Below are positions 5,005 to 15,463 of a stretch of DNA of 26,041 bases, piece after piece (positions within the stretch are counted from its first letter, which is position 1; each line of letters starts with the position of its first letter). The translations under genes were made by a program, and so were the position numbers. The notes below the pieces were generated by a model. It saw only the letters and a list, made by a program, of their open reading frames with translations, searched no databases and was not told where the DNA came from. The stretch comes from a virus, in IMG/VR virus record IMGVR_UViG_3300025687_000280, positions 1 through 26,041 of that record, one strand, 5' to 3'.

Positions 5005-8000
5005 TTAGTCGACAATCGGGATCATAGTGCACCGACAATTGATGTCTTCGCTAGCCTCACCGAATGAAGCTGGGCTTGGCGCTTCTGCTCCGCTTTCGCT
5101 GACGAAGTTTTCATTGACGCCGACAGTCTGACCATCTAAGCCGGCGTGACTGTCTCGAACCTTTGAATCACGCGCTGATAGCCATTGTTTCTGAAGCCGA
5201 ACCCCTTGTGCCGTTGCGTCAGTATAAGCTTGTTGTGTGCCGCTGTTAGCTGCTCTGGTGCTTTCGGTCTGTGCGATCATTAGAGACCGCGCAGCTCCGA
5301 AAGCTGTAGCTGCGTCAATGTTCCGACCGATCTGGGCAATCGGCAAACCTTCCATCAAGCCATCTTCGATTATTCTGGTGACGGCGTTCTCTTGCGTTCT
5401 GACAATCTGTCTTGACATTGTATTTATAAGCTCGTTCGCCAGTGTTTCGGATATGGTCACATCATCCACCGGCAAACCAGCGAGACGCATGATTTGTTTA
5501 AGCGTGTCGCCGCCGCTGAGGAAATACCACTTGCGCCACTTTGATCCGATTATTTGCGCAACCAGTTCTTCTTCTGCAGCTGTATCCATCAAGCTGGCAT
5601 AATCGATAATGCCTTTGGTCATGCTTGGCTTCACATATTCCAGCGTTCGGTCTTGGTATCGCTTAGCTGCGCCTTTGAGATAAGCATTTGCAGCTAGCCT
5701 CAAATCCTTCTCTGCTGGTTCGTGAAAGGTACGCAACCACATCTTCCACAGATCCGTTCTTGCTCGTTCTTTGGTTTGCTTGGCTTTGACTTCGTTGATA
5801 ATCTCTTTCATCCGACTTTCACCGAGCGCGCCGACAGTGAACCATTTTATCTGCGCAACGATTCCAGCAATCGAAGATATATTTGGCGCCGGCGGGTCAT
5901 CGCTATTGAATTGTGAACCATCTTTAAAATGACGCGCTGACCACGCCTCGCGCTTTCGGATTGCCATTTCTTCGGTCTCGGTTGTCGGCGCTTTACTGCG
6001 GCGTCGCACGATAGGCAAAAGCCGCCGATATTGATTGTTGCCTTCAATGTTTCCCCCAGCTCGCCATATTTCTGGCCAGTTCTCTTTCAGGTCTTCGGCA
6101 TATTCCCAATCGAAAACCTGATAACCGCTATTGCTAAGATTCACGTTTTCGTCATCGCCATCGGCCGGAAAATTGGTCGGATCAACATCGCCGACAGCGC
6201 GCATTTTTTCCAGCGCCGGAGCTTCTTCTCCGAACTCTAGATAAAGCTTTTCAATGACGCCATAAAGCCGATTGATGTCACGCTGTGAGATCCCGTCAAG
6301 GTTATAATAACCGGTTCCAAATTTGGCTTCTTTTCGAAGCGCTGAACCGGCGGCAATCACGCCACGAAAAACAATCTGCGCTCGGCCGTCAATCATCTTT
6401 GCAATCGGCAAACGATAACCGCGCGGGTCATCTTCTCGGCCACGATAGACGAACAAGAACGCATTCGAATAACGATCGAAATCATCTTCACCGAGCAGCT
6501 GGTCGGCTTCACGCTTTGTAAATCCCCAGTCGGTATCTTTTGGGGCTTTGTCTAGCCCTTCATAGCCGAATAGCAAATGCCGCTTTTCTTCGTCTTCGCC
6601 TCTTGTGCTTAAAGGGTGTTCTTCTGGCAATAAATCGGTGTCATAAGGCTGTCTTCGATATTTTAGATTCCGAAGCGCATAAAGCAAGCCATTTACGCGA
6701 CCCATAGCCCACTGTTCAGCGCTAGAGACAGTCGGTCGAACGCTTGAAGGGTTGCTTTCATAAGCTCCGATTCCACGAAGATATGAGACCGCCAGAATAT
6801 ATTCATCTGTTTGCTTGGCTGGATCATCGCCTACAGCTTCGAGATGTTCTTCAACCTTTTTTTTTAAAACTGTTTGTGTGTTTTCGTTTAAGCTGTTGAA
6901 CGCTTCACGGCGGTTCTCATAGGTGCTGAGATCCTGTCGGGTTTCGATGCTGTAAATCCGAGCTAGATAAGATCGTGCGTCTTCGGCTGTTTCGTCATTA
7001 TAATCTGCGATCGGTTCATCGATGTCTTCAGGGTATTCAAGACCTTCGTATTTGTAAGCTGCGCGCGGTGAAACGCCGTTTAAGATGTGCATTGACACGC
7101 GGTTAAGCTGCTCGGTGCGTGGCTCTTGAAGCGGTTCAACGGCTGAATAATCGTGTTCGAAGACAAGATCATCTTCCCATCTTTGCGCGATGGCACTGAA
7201 CAAGATCGATAGCCGCTTGCCGCGCTTGACTTGAACAGTCCAATAGTTTTTAGCTTGCTGTCGAGAGGTCGCATAATTGGCCGCCGGCAATCCTAGAACC
7301 GAAGGCGGAACACCAGTGACGGCTGAAATGCTTTCGCGCGCCATTCTCCGAGCTTCAACATATTCCATTTCACGAGGTGACAGCTGCAGCGGTTCAACTT
7401 CAGCCAAGCCAGACAGAACCATCGCACCACCGCCGGCGCTCAGCTTGCGGTATTCTTGCGCGATTTCTCGGCGTGTCTCTGGTCCCCAAATATCAGCGGG
7501 ATCTTTCGGCGAGATCAGCAAGTCCGGCCGAGCTTTCGCGCTTGATTCGCTGACTAGGTTCTGACTATTGATGTCGGCGGTTAGCTCTCTTGACAGCGGT
7601 TCGATCGCACCGGTTCCAAGAAGTTCTTCTGGGCCGCTTTTCCAGCTAGCAAGCCGACCATGAACGACGCGCTCCGGTGGATATGCGATCATCTGGCCAC
7701 CGCTGTTGTAAAGATAAGCTTGGATGCCAGTTTGATTCGTTGAGATCCGCACATTTTCGGGATGTAGTCGGACAATCGAAGTCGGCTTGTCGGTTTGACC
7801 AAGAAGAAGAATATAACAGTTCCCCGTCAAGATAAGATCGGTGCACAACTGCTCTCGAAACAGATAGCCGTCAACATTTGACGAGGGTTGATTCATTAAA
7901 TCGATGACTGGGTGATCTTCAACCAGAACGCGGTCTTTTCCTTTGAGCAATCGAAGCGGTAAAGCTGCGAGATCTTGCGAAGCGCGTGAAACAGCTGCAT

Positions 8001-8199
8001 AAGTGTAACCATGACCAGCATAAGCCGACATCGCTTCTTCTGGATTATAGGTCGGTCGCACGCCATACGGCTGGGCATAAGTCGCACCATGATCAAGCTC
8101 GCGCGGTTTGCTCTGCACATCGGCTAGCTGCTTTTGTTCTGGTGCTGAGAACCAATTAACGATTCTGAACCATAATCCGGTCTGTGTTGCTTCTGACAT
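5005..8199 (-). CDS. Portal protein fused to a MuF-type minor head protein
   Basis: This 1064-residue protein is far longer than a normal portal (400-550). Numbering is from an in-frame GTG two codons upstream. Residues 50-400 are an HK97-type portal: AAVSRASQDLAALPLRLLK, then DLILTGNCYILLL, then AVTGVPPSVLG and ANYATSRQQAKNYW. Residues about 485-800 are an extra region with motifs SAEQWAMGRVNGLLYALR, GYRLPIAKMIDG, VFRGVIAAGSALR, WRAGGNIEGN and KREAWSARHF. Residues about 860-1066 are a Mu gpF-like domain: SLMIAQTESTRAANSG, SARDSKVRDSHAGLDG and a terminal INCRCT. The portal forms the packaging vertex; MuF-like domains are head proteins that may be ejected. ATG 8199 is chosen over GTG 8205 because AAAGGGG lies 5 bases before it. 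The RusA stop lies just upstream. Confidence 0.9.
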   Translation of the reverse strand: MSEATQTGLWFRIVNWFSAPEQKQLADVQSKPRELDHGATYAQPYGVRPTYNPEEAMSAYAGHGYTYAAVSRASQDLAALPLRLLKGKDRVLVEDHPVIDLMNQPSSNVDGYLFREQLCTDLILTGNCYILLLGQTDKPTSIVRLHPENVRISTNQTGIQAYLYNSGGQMIAYPPERVVHGRLASWKSGPEELLGTGAIEPLSRELTADINSQNLVSESSAKARPDLLISPKDPADIWGPETRREIAQEYRKLSAGGGAMVLSGLAEVEPLQLSPREMEYVEARRMARESISAVTGVPPSVLGLPAANYATSRQQAKNYWTVQVKRGKRLSILFSAIAQRWEDDLVFEHDYSAVEPLQEPRTEQLNRVSMHILNGVSPRAAYKYEGLEYPEDIDEPIADYNDETAEDARSYLARIYSIETRQDLSTYENRREAFNSLNENTQTVLKKKVEEHLEAVGDDPAKQTDEYILAVSYLRGIGAYESNPSSVRPTVSSAEQWAMGRVNGLLYALRNLKYRRQPYDTDLLPEEHPLSTRGEDEEKRHLLFGYEGLDKAPKDTDWGFTKREADQLLGEDDFDRYSNAFLFVYRGREDDPRGYRLPIAKMIDGRAQIVFRGVIAAGSALRKEAKFGTGYYNLDGISQRDINRLYGVIEKLYLEFGEEAPALEKMRAVGDVDPTNFPADGDDENVNLSNSGYQVFDWEYAEDLKENWPEIWRAGGNIEGNNQYRRLLPIVRRRSKAPTTETEEMAIRKREAWSARHFKDGSQFNSDDPPAPNISSIAGIVAQIKWFTVGALGESRMKEIINEVKAKQTKERARTDLWKMWLRTFHEPAEKDLRLAANAYLKGAAKRYQDRTLEYVKPSMTKGIIDYASLMDTAAEEELVAQIIGSKWRKWYFLSGGDTLKQIMRLAGLPVDDVTISETLANELINTMSRQIVRTQENAVTRIIEDGLMEGLPIAQIGRNIDAATAFGAARSLMIAQTESTRAANSGTQQAYTDATAQGVRLQKQWLSARDSKVRDSHAGLDGQTVGVNENFVSESGAEAPSPASFGEASEDINCRCTMIPIVD

Positions 8200-8225
8200 A
8201 TTCACCCCTTTAAAGGGTATATATC
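8197..8225 (-). promoter_or_regulatory. Shared late leader in front of portal
   Basis: On the minus strand: an extended -10-like TGATATATA, then ACCCTTTAAAGGGG, then TGAATATG with the portal start. The central CCCTTTAAAGGG is a perfect 12-bp palindrome that contains the ribosome site. It matches the protease leader except for one inserted base and two substitutions. A promoter that starts transcription just before the portal gene, uncoupled from resolvase and methyltransferase, is a reasonable inference. Confidence 0.45.
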
Positions 8226-8642
8226 AATTTTAATGTAATTTCGTTCAGATTTTTTATTTTCGCGGATCTTGCCATACCATTTCGTTGCGATGAGACCGAC
8301 AACCTGAGCATCATCTTTTAAAACCTTCGCATCTTGCAAGGCATCGAGAACGGATTTCGTGATGTTATCCAGATCTGGCTTCGTGCCTTTAAAGATTCGA
8401 TCGGTCGGGTCTGATTTGCGCATCAAGCTTTGAGGTCGCTGATAAATAAAGGTGATGTCAACAAATACGACATCTTCAATGTTTAAAGCTGCGATTTGAT
8501 TTCGGATCTGGGTCACCGCTCCGCTTTTCCACTGAACATAATTCATCGGCATATAAGCTCGGCCGCCAGCAACGCGCGGTCGTGGGCATGACATCGGTTT
8601 TGTTTCAATATTAAGTGTTATCCGTTCGCCTGTTAAATTCAT
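8202..8642 (-). CDS. rusA: RusA-like Holliday junction resolvase
   Basis: This 146-residue endonuclease resolves four-way DNA junctions from replication and recombination before packaging. The diagnostic segment is KPDLDNITKSVLDALQ followed by LKDDAQV. D90, D92 and D111 reproduce the spacing of the three catalytic aspartates of E. coli RusA (70, 72, 91). A basic SCPRPRV stretch near residue 18 and a C-terminal KKSERNYIKIDI strand complete the fold. The length fits the family (about 120-150). The ATG overlaps the methyltransferase stop as ATGA, with AGGTGA upstream, so the two DNA-processing genes are translationally coupled. Confidence 0.9.
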   Translation of the reverse strand: MNLTGERITLNIETKPMSCPRPRVAGGRAYMPMNYVQWKSGAVTQIRNQIAALNIEDVVFVDITFIYQRPQSLMRKSDPTDRIFKGTKPDLDNITKSVLDALQDAKVLKDDAQVVGLIATKWYGKIRENKKSERNYIKIDIYPLKG

Positions 8643-9856
8643 GCTTCACCTAGCCAGTCAAAAAAAGATAATTGTGCGTTCTCTCGTTTATATTCTTCGA
8701 TGGCCCAAGAACAACGACCTTCGATAATTGGGATATAATCTTCGGTAAGCTCGCAGCCGATCGAATCAAATCCTTCGAGAACAGCTGCTGCTAATGTCGT
8801 TCCAGATCCGGCAAAGGGGTCGAGAACAGTTCCACCTTTCGGCGTGACAAGACGACATAACCATCTCATGAGTTTAAGCGGCTTGACAGTCGGATGAAAG
8901 TTTTTTACTTCTGGCGTTTTATTTCCATCCAAGCGTTCGCCAGTTCCATTGTGTGAATTCATGTTACTTCTCTTTATCTTGTCAGCTAGATGTTCAAGAC
9001 CGGCGTCACGCTCGGCTCGGCTTGGCTTGGCGCATTGATAGATATTTGCTGGCCATCTTCCAAGATGATGTGCAAAAGAATTACAATAGGTCATTTCAGG
9101 TAATTGAACACTAATCCCAGTACCTGTTGACAGAGAACCATCTTTTCTTCTTGGATCTCTGATTTTTTCATCAGGCCCTACCCAACATTCATCACCATAT
9201 CCAAATCGACACGCATCTATATTCAAACCGCCCGTTTTCGTCTTCAAAACCTGTCGGGCTATACTCGATTCGGCTAAAGGCTTTCGTGCTAAAATTGCGG
9301 GTTCTTGTGCTGGTTTTAAAGCGGTTCCCCAGCCCTCGAATTCTTTGGCTTCTTCAGTTTGTGTTTCAATCTCTTTGCGTTCATATTCAACGACATCGCC
9401 AAGAATTCCGTTATTTCTTCCCTTGTGCTGATAAGAATTTGTGCCATATTCAAGCTCGGTCTTTCGCAGCTTTGTGCTATGAGAACCACCGTTTAACAGT
9501 GTTGAATCGATGGCTTTAGCTATGTTTAAAGATTTTGGAAAGCCAGAGAAATAAAGCCAGCTGATCATGTCTCTAATTTCAAATCCGGCATCTTCAATTG
9601 CGCATGTCGTTCGGTGGATTGTTCTGGTCGCTCCGAATGCTATCAAGTGACCTCCAGCCTTTAAAACACGAAGACATTCAGCCCAAAGCTCTTGGTTATA
9701 AGCTGCGCCGGTATTATCCCAGCCCTTACCCATAAAAGCGATTTCATAAGGTGGATCTGTCACTATCGAATCAATAGATTCATCAGGAATCGATTTCAAT
9801 ATATCGAGATTATTTCCAAGATGAATTTGATAGCTCGGTATTCTTAATTCATGCAT
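8639..9856 (-). CDS. Beta-class DNA methyltransferase (N6-adenine or N4-cytosine)
   Basis: This 405-residue protein transfers a methyl group from S-adenosylmethionine to an amino group of DNA. The catalytic motif IV, SIVTDPPYEIAFMGKGWD, is at residues 30-47, and the SAM-binding motif I, VLDPFAGSGTT, is near the C terminus. This motif IV-then-I order defines the beta class. Between them, HPTVKPLKLMRWL matches motif X, and the middle (about 110-290) is the variable target-recognition region. Recognition sequence and target base cannot be read from the sequence. No restriction endonuclease is adjacent, so it is probably an orphan that protects phage DNA. The start is supported by AACAAGGAAAA. 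A strong terminator ends only about 15 bases before the ATG. Confidence 0.9.
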   Translation of the reverse strand: MHELRIPSYQIHLGNNLDILKSIPDESIDSIVTDPPYEIAFMGKGWDNTGAAYNQELWAECLRVLKAGGHLIAFGATRTIHRTTCAIEDAGFEIRDMISWLYFSGFPKSLNIAKAIDSTLLNGGSHSTKLRKTELEYGTNSYQHKGRNNGILGDVVEYERKEIETQTEEAKEFEGWGTALKPAQEPAILARKPLAESSIARQVLKTKTGGLNIDACRFGYGDECWVGPDEKIRDPRRKDGSLSTGTGISVQLPEMTYCNSFAHHLGRWPANIYQCAKPSRAERDAGLEHLADKIKRSNMNSHNGTGERLDGNKTPEVKNFHPTVKPLKLMRWLCRLVTPKGGTVLDPFAGSGTTLAAAVLEGFDSIGCELTEDYIPIIEGRCSWAIEEYKRENAQLSFFDWLGEA

Positions 9857-12537: not shown

Positions 12538-13758
12538 CTACCAAGGAATATCAGCGATTTCGTTGAACTTGATACCGTCTTCTTTGATGGCTTCTTTTCC
12601 GGTCAGCTGCTGCCAGCGCCTAATGATGACATCGCAATATTTCGGATCGAGTTCCATCATAAAGCATTTTCGGTTTGTCTGTTCGCAAGCTATGAGAGTA
12701 GATCCAGAGCCACCAAAGGAATCAAGAATATTCTGATCTTTTTTTGTGCTGTTCTGTATTTGATAAGAAATAAGCTGCACCGGCTTCATTGTCGGATGTT
12801 GTCCATTTCTATTTGGTTTATCATACTCTAATATTGTTGTTTGCTTTCGATCAGAGTTCCATAAATGAGCTGCTCCAGCTTTCCAGCCGTACAAACATGA
12901 TTCATGTTGCCAATGGTAATCTTGACGACCAATCACCATTGTTTGCTTTTTCCAGATTAAACACTGCTTTAAAAGCCAGCCAACATTTAAACAGCTTTGA
13001 CGAAAATGGATATTAGTATCCTCATGCCAAATATAAAAAACAGCGCCTTCTTTCATATTTTGATCAGCTTGCTCATAAGCAGAATCTAAAAATAAAGAAA
13101 ATTCTGTATCCGTTATTGAGTCATTTTTGATTTTTAATTTGTCTTTTGTTTTTCCTTCATAAGCTACATTATAAGGCGGATCAGTGATCCATAAATCTGC
13201 TTTTTCACCGGCCATCAGCCGCCCGATATCCTCTTCTTTCGTGCTGTCACCACATAGCAATCGATGATCACCAAGAATCCACAGATCGCCCGCTGAGGTA
13301 ATCGCTTGTTCTTCGACCTCTGGCACATCATCCGGATCGCCATTCAGTTCCACCGGATCGTCTTGGTCAATTAGCGCGTCAAGTTCTTCGTCAGACCAGC
13401 CAAGACCCGACAGATCTTGATCTTCAAGTGACGACAGAACCTCTTTCAGCTTGTCTTGATCCCAGTCAGCGATCTCGCCGATCTTGTTATCTGCGAGCGC
13501 AAGCAGCTGGGCGTCATTCAAATCGAGATCCATGAAGCGAACCGGAACAGATTTCAAGCCGATCTTCTTGGCAGCTTCGAATCGTGTATGACCGGCGATG
13601 ATCATATTATCAGCTGCTCTGGCGATGATTGGCGAGGCGAATCCGAAGCGCTTGATGGATTTCGCGACTTCATCGATCGCGCTCTTGTTCTGTCTGGGGT
13701 TATCTTTCCATGCGTTAAGGGTTGATATATCAACCCATTCGCCGATTGATTCTGTCAT
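12538..13758 (-). CDS. ParB-like domain fused to a beta-class DNA methyltransferase
   Basis: This 406-residue two-domain protein has a ParB/sulfiredoxin-like fold at residues 8-115, with NPRQN (20-24), the conserved IIAGHTRFEAAKKIG (53-67) and ALADNKIGE. An acidic linker (117-150) leads to the methyltransferase. This has motif IV LWITDPPYNVAYEG (189-202), motif X HPTMKPVQL (321-329) and motif I ILDSFGGSGST (344-354), in the beta-class order. The architecture is common in phages and prophages. The ParB-like part probably binds DNA or nucleotide and may guide methylation; target sequence and base are unknown. Its ATG follows the ribbon-helix-helix gene's stop, and TAGGAAAA serves as both stop and ribosome site. 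Confidence 0.9.
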   Translation of the reverse strand: MTESIGEWVDISTLNAWKDNPRQNKSAIDEVAKSIKRFGFASPIIARAADNMIIAGHTRFEAAKKIGLKSVPVRFMDLDLNDAQLLALADNKIGEIADWDQDKLKEVLSSLEDQDLSGLGWSDEELDALIDQDDPVELNGDPDDVPEVEEQAITSAGDLWILGDHRLLCGDSTKEEDIGRLMAGEKADLWITDPPYNVAYEGKTKDKLKIKNDSITDTEFSLFLDSAYEQADQNMKEGAVFYIWHEDTNIHFRQSCLNVGWLLKQCLIWKKQTMVIGRQDYHWQHESCLYGWKAGAAHLWNSDRKQTTILEYDKPNRNGQHPTMKPVQLISYQIQNSTKKDQNILDSFGGSGSTLIACEQTNRKCFMMELDPKYCDVIIRRWQQLTGKEAIKEDGIKFNEIADIPW

Positions 13759-13766
13759 AGCTTTTC

Positions 13767-13946
13767 CTATTCGGTGATCGTTCTGAGAGCGTGAATAATC
13801 ACCGAAGAACGCGTGACGCTATTTTGATCGGCTAGGCGTTCGACTTTATCCAGCAAGCCGCTCGGAATGCGCACGCAGATAACCTGAGAATTGCCGCGAT
13901 CTTCTTGGCCGCGACCTTGTTTGACTGGTTCGATGTTACTAGGCAT
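13767..13946 (-). CDS. Ribbon-helix-helix DNA-binding protein
   Basis: This is a short gene of 59 codons. The protein starts MPSNIEPVKQGRGQEDRGNS, and the ribbon is QVICVRIP, followed by helices SGLLDKVERLADQN and VTRSSVIIHALRTI. That is the ribbon-helix-helix pattern of CopG/Arc-like repressors: the strand inserts in the major groove, and the SVTRSSVI turn starts helix B. The N terminus is a flexible charged tail. The ribosome site is GAGGAAATAATC before ATG. It sits between the candidate helicase loader and the ParB-methyltransferase. RHH dimers bind short palindromes, so it is one candidate for the factor that reads the ATGTAWTACAT operators; this is inference. Confidence 0.85.
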   Translation of the reverse strand: MPSNIEPVKQGRGQEDRGNSQVICVRIPSGLLDKVERLADQNSVTRSSVIIHALRTITE

Positions 13947-13975
13947 GATTATTTCCTCGAATAGTGTATAACATT

Positions 13976-14689
13976 TTATTTGAGATAATGAAGATTTTTT
14001 TCACCGACGATAGCTCGGCGAAATTGCTTTCTTTGAGCTTCAACACCAGCTTCTTTCATCTTCTGGCGGCGCTCGGCCATGACCTCGCCGATTTCATCGA
14101 ACGACATTCCGGCGAACGGTGACGGATCGACGCCAGCGGGGTATTCATCGCGGCCGCTGTGCTGGTTGAAGCTCGTTACATACCATTCTAGGATTTCAAT
14201 CGAGTGCGGATCTGAATCTCGATAACCCAGACAACGATAGCCCTTAGATGAACGCAAACGGTCTAAAAACTGGTTGTAGTTATCTGCTTTGGTATTCAGA
14301 GCGCCTCTCGAACAAGTACAGCGTGCAACCCATTCCTGACGCTTTATCTGGTCTTCATCGATGCGCATGATAACAAACAATCGACGCGTACCATTTTCGC
14401 AGAGGTGACAGCTGGAAGCTGAGAGCGCTTGACGAACCTGTGCAGCTCCGAGCTTCTTGATCATGTACGCTTTGAGATCGCCGAAAGGTGGTAACCGCTT
14501 GTCAGCGGTGTCGGTGATGTACTGCATAGCTGCGCGGTGAACCAGATCATTATCATAGTTCTGGAAGCTGGCGAATAGCAAGCCGGCGAAGCTGTCAAAG
14601 AAGGCTTGATGCCACTGGGGATCTTTGCCCCAGTTCATTCCAAAGTGAAGCGCGATTTGTTCTGATGTTTGATAGGTGAGTGTATTCAT
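13976..14689 (-). CDS. Zinc-finger replication protein, candidate helicase loader
   Basis: This 237-residue protein is encoded directly after the initiator (TAATG overlap). The N-terminal half is helical (QIALHFGMNW, FFDSFAGLLFASFQ, LVHRAAMQYI, FGDLKAYMIKKLG), as in phage helicase loaders of the P/DnaC-replacement type. A four-cysteine site follows: C94 and C97 in SCHLCENG, and C124 and C126 in RCTCSRG, a likely zinc ribbon. The C-terminal third is charged and helical (MAERRQKMKEAGVEAQRKQF). No Walker motifs are seen, so it is not an ATPase of the DnaC type. The role as loader or primosome component is inferred from the position after an O-like initiator and from the general pattern. Confidence 0.55.
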   Translation of the reverse strand: MNTLTYQTSEQIALHFGMNWGKDPQWHQAFFDSFAGLLFASFQNYDNDLVHRAAMQYITDTADKRLPPFGDLKAYMIKKLGAAQVRQALSASSCHLCENGTRRLFVIMRIDEDQIKRQEWVARCTCSRGALNTKADNYNQFLDRLRSSKGYRCLGYRDSDPHSIEILEWYVTSFNQHSGRDEYPAGVDPSPFAGMSFDEIGEVMAERRQKMKEAGVEAQRKQFRRAIVGEKNLHYLK

Positions 14690-15132
14690 TAGTCAATTCT
14701 CGGTACAAGGAAAAAAGGATTAGGTTTTTTTTGTTCTTCTTCTTTTTCTTTTTCTTTTTGTTTTTCTTTCTTATTGGTATTTAGATTTGATAGGGGGGGG
14801 GTATTTAGATTTGATATACCCCCCCTATTTAGATTTGATATACCCTCTATCAAATTTGAACCCCCCTCTTCAGCCTTTGGCAGCTTGAATCTGGCGGTGT
14901 TGTTTTTCGGGTCAAAGCCATCACGAACCAGCATTCCCTTATCAACCAAGCTTCGGATAGCTCGCTTAACTGAAGGCACAGAACACCCAGCCAATTGAGC
15001 TACGGTTGCAGCTGCTGGATAAGCAACGCCATTTGACCCCATAAACATTTTCAGGATGAAATAAACAGCCCACTCAACATTTTTCGGTAGGCTGTCGATT
15101 TCGTTCTTGTTGATCTTAGTCCAGCGATACAC
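14689..15132 (-). CDS. Winged-helix replication initiator (O-like) with embedded iterons
   Basis: This protein of 147 residues from GTG 15132 has an N-terminal winged helix: KNVEWAVYFILKMF, YPAAATVAQLAGCSVPSVKR and AIRSLVDKGMLV. These match the HTH found in lambda O-like and plasmid initiators. A low-complexity middle holds three SNLN repeats spaced 8 residues apart, which are the translation of 24-bp DNA iterons. A Lys/Glu-rich stretch and a short NPFFLVPRID tail follow. The protein should bind the iterons and recruit the loader encoded next. GTG 15132 is preferred because AAAGGG lies 8 bases upstream; an ATG at 15171 in the same frame has no ribosome site and would overlap the previous gene by 56 bases. 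Confidence 0.75.
   Translation of the reverse strand: MYRWTKINKNEIDSLPKNVEWAVYFILKMFMGSNGVAYPAAATVAQLAGCSVPSVKRAIRSLVDKGMLVRDGFDPKNNTARFKLPKAEEGGSNLIEGISNLNRGGISNLNTPPLSNLNTNKKEKQKEKEKEEEQKKPNPFFLVPRID
14723..14770 (+). other. T-rich/A-rich strand-asymmetric tract, candidate DNA unwinding element
   Basis: A 48-base run is almost purely pyrimidine on the plus strand (T with scattered C, only a few G). It starts after TTAGG and ends at the iterons. It encodes the Lys/Glu-rich part of the initiator. Its position directly beside the iteron array mirrors the AT-rich unwinding region beside the iterons of lambda ori. Confidence 0.55.
14778..14860. repeat. Iteron array, candidate replication origin inside the initiator gene
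   Basis: Three identical copies of TATTTAGATTTGATA start at 14778, 14802 and 14826, an exact 24-bp period. A degenerate inverted copy (TATCAAATTTGAA, 14848-14860) forms an ATTTGATA/TATCAAAT inverted repeat with the third. The copies are separated by a G9 tract (14793-14801) and a C7 tract (14819-14825) that could pair with each other around the second iteron. The array lies within the initiator coding sequence, as in lambda-like phages, next to an AT-rich tract. Confidence 0.8.
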
Positions 15133-15463
15133 TTTCAAAGCCCTTTGTGCCGAGATAATGATGACAGGCATAGAACTGGCTGAAGGTCATCAGGGTTTGC
15201 AGCTGGGCTTGATAATCGCGTTCAGCTTGTCGCATCAGAACCTCATCGATCTCGCTTCGACTTTGATAGTAGTTAAGCTGGCGCTGGCGAACCTTCTCAA
15301 GACCTTCTTCAGCAACATCAGCCCAAAGCCAATAATACTTCTTAAGATCGTCAACGGTTTGAACGCCGATCGCGTAAGGGTGGGTGAGTGCTAGAACTAG
15401 CTCGAGGTTCTCTTTTGAAGCTGAGCTGAGTGTGTGCATTACATCTTCGAATAAGTGAAACAT
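15116..15463 (-). CDS. Hypothetical helical protein upstream of the initiator
   Basis: This 115-residue protein of unknown function starts MFHLFEDVMHTLSSASKENL. It appears mostly helical: ASKENLELVLALTHPYAIG, TVDDLKKYYWLWADVAEEGL, and a long charged helix with RQRQLNYYQSRSEIDEVLMR and QAERDYQAQLQTLMTFSQFY. The long helix could be a coiled coil. The ribosome site AACAAGGATATAAA belongs to the early-gene leader family. A CCAGCTCC-TTCG-GGAGCTGG hairpin lies just upstream. Its 3' end overlaps the initiator start region, so both are co-translated from promoter P3. No family is recognised. Confidence 0.65.
   Translation of the reverse strand: MFHLFEDVMHTLSSASKENLELVLALTHPYAIGVQTVDDLKKYYWLWADVAEEGLEKVRQRQLNYYQSRSEIDEVLMRQAERDYQAQLQTLMTFSQFYACHHYLGTKGFESVSLD

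Follow-up and report, generated by a model that had tools for sequence, protein, structure and literature searches.

Does a phage gene that contains three perfect copies of a 15-bp sequence encode a repetitive protein, or does it house a site that acts as DNA? The question is raised by IMG/VR virus record IMGVR_UViG_3300025687_000280, which was analysed as a whole (26,041 bp; hereafter, the window) and carries tailed-phage genes for terminase, portal, head protease and head-tail proteins. Both the repeats and an adjacent T-rich tract are found in the 3' half of a gene for a winged-helix protein (14689–15171, minus strand), part of a minus-strand early-gene block. The original prediction, made from the letters alone, took them for a replication origin laid out like lambda ori within O. 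This reading is supported by the nature of the gene, the array, the AT-rich tract, the comparison with lambda and selection on the DNA in relatives. Judging from these sequence features, the locus is very probably a lambda-type replication origin inside its own initiator gene, at which the initiator would bind, melt the DNA and start replication.

Iterons within the initiator gene

The components of the locus, in order along the coding strand of the initiator gene, are as follows.

14689–15171, minus strand: gene for the winged-helix (O-like) initiator, 160 amino acids from ATG, matching HTH_36 and PHROG 678
14881–15081, minus strand: winged-helix DNA-binding domain, residues 31–97, AlphaFold pLDDT mostly 67–84
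14861–14866, no strand assigned: 6-bp homopolymer at the outer array edge, G on the coding strand, of equal length in relatives L001 and L002
14848–14862, plus strand: degenerate inverted copy of the iteron, 11/15 matches, coding-strand GGTTCAAATTTGATA
14826–14840, minus strand: iteron A, TATCAAATCTAAATA on the coding strand, of the three the farthest from the AT-rich tract
14819–14825, no strand assigned: homopolymer of 7 bp (coding-strand G) separating iteron A from iteron B, of equal length in L001 and L002
14802–14816, minus strand: iteron B, a perfect copy
14793–14801, no strand assigned: homopolymer of 9 bp (coding-strand C) separating iteron B from iteron C, of equal length in L001 and L002
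14778–14792, minus strand: iteron C, a perfect copy adjoining the AT-rich tract
14725–14772, no strand assigned: AT-rich tract, A-rich on the coding strand, with 39 T among its 48 bases as presented

The anatomy reported in the original prediction was recovered in full: three perfect copies of TATTTAGATTTGATA (TATCAAATCTAAATA on the coding strand) at intervals of 24 and 24 bp, the inverted degenerate copy and the 48-base T-rich tract. No further site for TATTTAGATTTGATA occurs in the window at up to two mismatches, and the array is the sole three-copy direct repeat of the window (minimum 15 bp, copies within 300 bp). Its score of 78 compares with a maximum of 18 among 200 codon shuffles of the initiator gene. 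When the inverted copy is extended into the neighbouring G tract, it matches at 15 of 18 positions, and it is retained in L001 and L002. By nearest-neighbour stability, the T-rich tract is among the least stable 0.8% of 50-bp stretches in the window, and its equivalents in L001 and a further relative, L007, fall within the least stable 0.6%; composition and stability make it a probable unwinding element.

The placement of the array in the coding sequence of a winged-helix initiator is borne out by the matches of the encoded protein to Pfam HTH_36 (E 1.7e-6) and, as the best PHROG match, to PHROG 678 'replication initiation O-like' (E 4.6e-9), which lambda O likewise matches. In total, a dozen PHROG families match the protein, including phrog_391 and phrog_345, and nearly all are replication initiation or DnaD-like helicase loader families. 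Given that the equivalent open reading frame (ORF) of L007 (1228–1659) opens only at TTG, a start at the corresponding TTG 15138 is likelier than the ATG, and the true initiator probably comprises 149 residues. The protein ends in a conserved ten-residue sequence, NPFFLVPRID (NPFFMVPRID in L007).

The winged-helix region was modelled with moderate confidence, and its nearest PDB folds are MarR-type winged-helix proteins (best E 2e-3). Proteins with MarR-like folds are often repressors and operators can be direct repeats, so that the array could instead serve the winged-helix protein as an operator for repressing or timing its own operon, with replication starting elsewhere. We consider this very unlikely, because the family matches of the protein are to replication initiators and the promoter-associated palindromes found upstream of early genes (see below) differ in sequence from the iterons.

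The array in related phages

Three relatives of the window phage, L001, L002 and L007, were found. A search for the iteron pair across all viral contigs yielded matches only in two already-known relatives, and a search of bacterial genomes for relatives gave no confirmed case. The L001 initiator is 76% identical to that of the window at the protein level. Among codons specifying the same residue in both phages, 26 of 29 are identical in the array; in the body of the gene, taken from the overlap with the upstream gene as far as the array, the count is 26 of 59 (Fisher p = 2.9e-5). This difference reveals selection below the amino-acid level. The three array codons that differ represent a single synonymous change, AAT to AAC, repeated in every iteron, and the lengths of the G7 and C9 runs are equal in L001, L002 and the window. 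Either selection that keeps the sites matched or homogenisation of the repeats can give rise to such a concerted change; the low silent divergence of the array, however, would not follow from homogenisation alone. The comparison with relatives is strong evidence that the iterons are conserved as DNA, beyond the needs of the protein.

Read in frame, the array encodes GSNLIEGISNLNRGGISNLNTPPLSNLNTNK, in which SNL recurs at 21, 24 and 24 nt; the 8-codon period originally ascribed to the SNLN repeat therefore holds for two of the three intervals and fails for the 21-nt one. Such a peptide could be a low-complexity linker generated by slippage, with the DNA repeats incidental to it. Homopolymers and short periods favour slippage, and homogenisation rather than selection could have produced the concerted change in L001. 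However, the silent sites of the array are far more conserved than those of the rest of the gene, L007 keeps the spacing and layout despite an unrelated array peptide (DTVVT), and the inverted copy is present in both the window and L007 types, making this protein-level explanation extremely unlikely.

L007, the one sister phage with an alternative iteron type, bears further on the proposed initiator–origin pairing. Neighbouring genes are well kept between L007 and the window, with 82% identity for the protein encoded downstream of the initiator and 96% for terL. Within the initiator, identity is 9/9 in the leader and 14/18 in the wing but 8/17 in the recognition helix and 4/29 among array residues. 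The L007 iteron, GATACTSTAGTTAC, is present in three copies at 21 and 24 bp, accompanied by an inverted copy (11/14), with C/G runs between the iterons and A-rich DNA after them. The recognition helix and the iteron have thus switched jointly, as predicted for a cognate initiator–origin pair. The same observation bears on the possibility that a protein other than the initiator, such as a host factor or a different phage product, binds the repeats as a partition or packaging site. Although a gene for a fusion of a ParB N-terminal domain with a methyltransferase lies nearby in the window, the iteron changes with the recognition helix of the very protein that carries it while the adjacent gene is still 82% identical, and binding by another protein is scarcely credible.

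A model of initiation and the neighbouring genes

By analogy with lambda, the locus would be a theta-replication phage origin of the ori-lambda design. The winged-helix protein would bind the three direct 15-bp iterons in the DNA coding for its own linker and, probably, the degenerate inverted iteron as well. The resulting complex would strain and then melt the neighbouring AT-rich tract, where the host replicative helicase would be loaded, most likely aided by the product of the next gene, and replication would start at the array. The SNLN peptide repeats would constitute a flexible linker, a by-product of the iterons. Two genes flank the initiator gene.

13976–14689, minus strand: 237-codon gene placed where lambda has P and coupled to the initiator stop codon (TAATG), candidate helicase loader
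15116–15463, minus strand: 115-codon upstream gene, overlapping the initiator start and co-conserved with it

The 237-residue protein, conserved in position and sequence in the four phages, has four invariant cysteines (C94, C97, C124 and C126), and its operon position alone makes it a candidate helicase loader. Searches of Pfam, PHROGs and PDB returned no match, comparison of its profile with the P-position gene of Vibrio phage PVA1 and a Vibrio set gave nothing, and relatives were not detectable outside the phage group of the window. Its structure model is of low confidence (mean pLDDT 51) and has no meaningful PDB match. Tentatively, a pared-down initiator, consisting of a winged helix, an iteron-encoded linker and the NPFFLVPRID end and devoid of a C-terminal domain, might recruit the helicase through this four-cysteine protein, which would then represent an undescribed loader family.

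Several observations weigh against a lambda-type origin. The window initiator does not match Pfam Phage_rep_O (PF04492), and the L001 protein scores 12.8 bits against it, compared to a gathering cut-off of 28.7. The initiator lacks the C-terminal region of lambda O, ending about 28 residues past the array, and hhalign detects no similarity between the 237-residue protein and lambda P; the protein was not found to resemble any helicase loader. The joint switch of helix and iteron is seen in one sister phage, and GC skew is uninformative, with no more than a shallow local minimum around 14 kb along a contig that is linear and probably incomplete.

The window also contains a dispersed palindrome, ATGTWWWACAT, with ten sites at up to one mismatch (4311, 4399, 10236, 13964, 15876, 15897, 16800, 16816, 18206 and 18227) where 1.6 would be expected, a count that was matched in none of 100 shuffles. 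It recurs in L001 (4060, 4707 and 6661) and L007 (134, 155 and 2374). The sites are mostly located just upstream of early genes, and several pairs 16–21 bp apart overlap a TTTACA-N17 promoter-like site. The palindrome looks like a shared operator or a phage-specific promoter. A small ORF (about 13772–13948, minus strand; about 59 amino acids, MPSNIEPVKQGRGQEDRGNSQVICVRIPSGLLDKVERLADQNSVTRSSVIIHALRTITE) with a palindrome upstream has no Pfam match and resembles ribbon-helix-helix proteins by eye; its product is a candidate regulator of these sites.

Elsewhere in the window, a 1066-residue fusion of a portal protein with a head-morphogenesis domain is encoded at 5005–8205 (minus strand), the ParB N-terminal domain/DNA methyltransferase fusion at 12538–13758 (minus strand) and a second methyltransferase at 8639–9856. 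At the position of the former methyltransferase fusion, L001 carries a different gene (6866–7414), whose product resembles an MT-A70-type methyltransferase by eye.

For an uncultured phage group, the locus pins down a candidate origin with base-pair precision, and the sister phages show initiator specificity and origin sequence shifting together when one gene holds both. The window and L007 types constitute a small ready-made matched pair for the recognition code of O-like winged-helix proteins, and the short initiator with its partner could reveal the minimal needs of an O/P pair.

Comparison with known systems

In lambda, too, the iterons are located within the initiator gene past the winged-helix region, 20–24 bp apart, with G/C tracts beside AT-rich iteron cores, an A-rich tract that follows them directly in the coding direction and a next gene that overlaps the initiator stop codon. 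The intervals annotated in O are 20, 24 and 23 bp, and the 24-bp period, originally presented as distinctive, is ordinary. Likewise, the G/C homopolymers do not set the window apart as had been suggested, given that lambda iterons are bounded by CCC and GGG(GG) tracts. The iteron sequence does differ, as predicted, and lambda has four iterons versus three direct and one inverted in the window phage, which also has no recognisable P. Comparison of lambda O with the initiator family by hhalign gave a weak match (E 0.0037), confined to the winged-helix region and the start of the linker. Lambda O is longer (299 amino acids versus about 149–160) and continues past the array into a long C-terminal region, its P-binding part. 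Work on Stx phages has shown that O binds such iterons and contacts G residues of the G/C tracts, and that mutation of iteron 1 or 1' in a P27-derived origin plasmid abolished transformation (PMC7466680).

Other phages provide further parallels. Gene 59 of Enterobacteria phage ES18 encodes an O-like initiator and contains an annotated origin 'similar to lambda ori', but with lambda-type iterons, and is followed by a small gene and then a primase/helicase gene. The replication initiation protein of Vibrio phage PVA1 (NC_023605) is similar to the window initiator family (hhalign E 5.7e-8), and its linker-coding DNA contains two direct iterons with, by eye, an inverted copy between them, followed by A-rich DNA and an NTNK sequence. 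By contrast with the window protein, it has 261 amino acids and a C-terminal domain, and its iterons are different, with the direct pair spaced 45 bp. Pseudomonas phage Skulduggery (SKUL_49) and Lactococcus phage D6890 (D6890_039) also carry intragenic tandem iterons split by C or G runs, although the iteron sequences are unrelated and the proteins longer; in Skulduggery, a DnaC-type loader gene follows the initiator.

Particular to the window phage are its short initiator, its iteron sequences and a next gene with no relatives detected outside the phage group. Among 14 other phage initiator-type genes, nine contain an intragenic array that outscores every shuffle, several with G/C tracts; this sample, made up of tblastn hits to PVA1 picked by hand together with PVA1 itself and lambda, illustrates the arrangement and gives no frequency. 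Because intragenic arrays, some with C/G runs, occur in lambda and other initiator genes, the layout is ordinary, belonging to a known type common to many phages rather than to a new kind.
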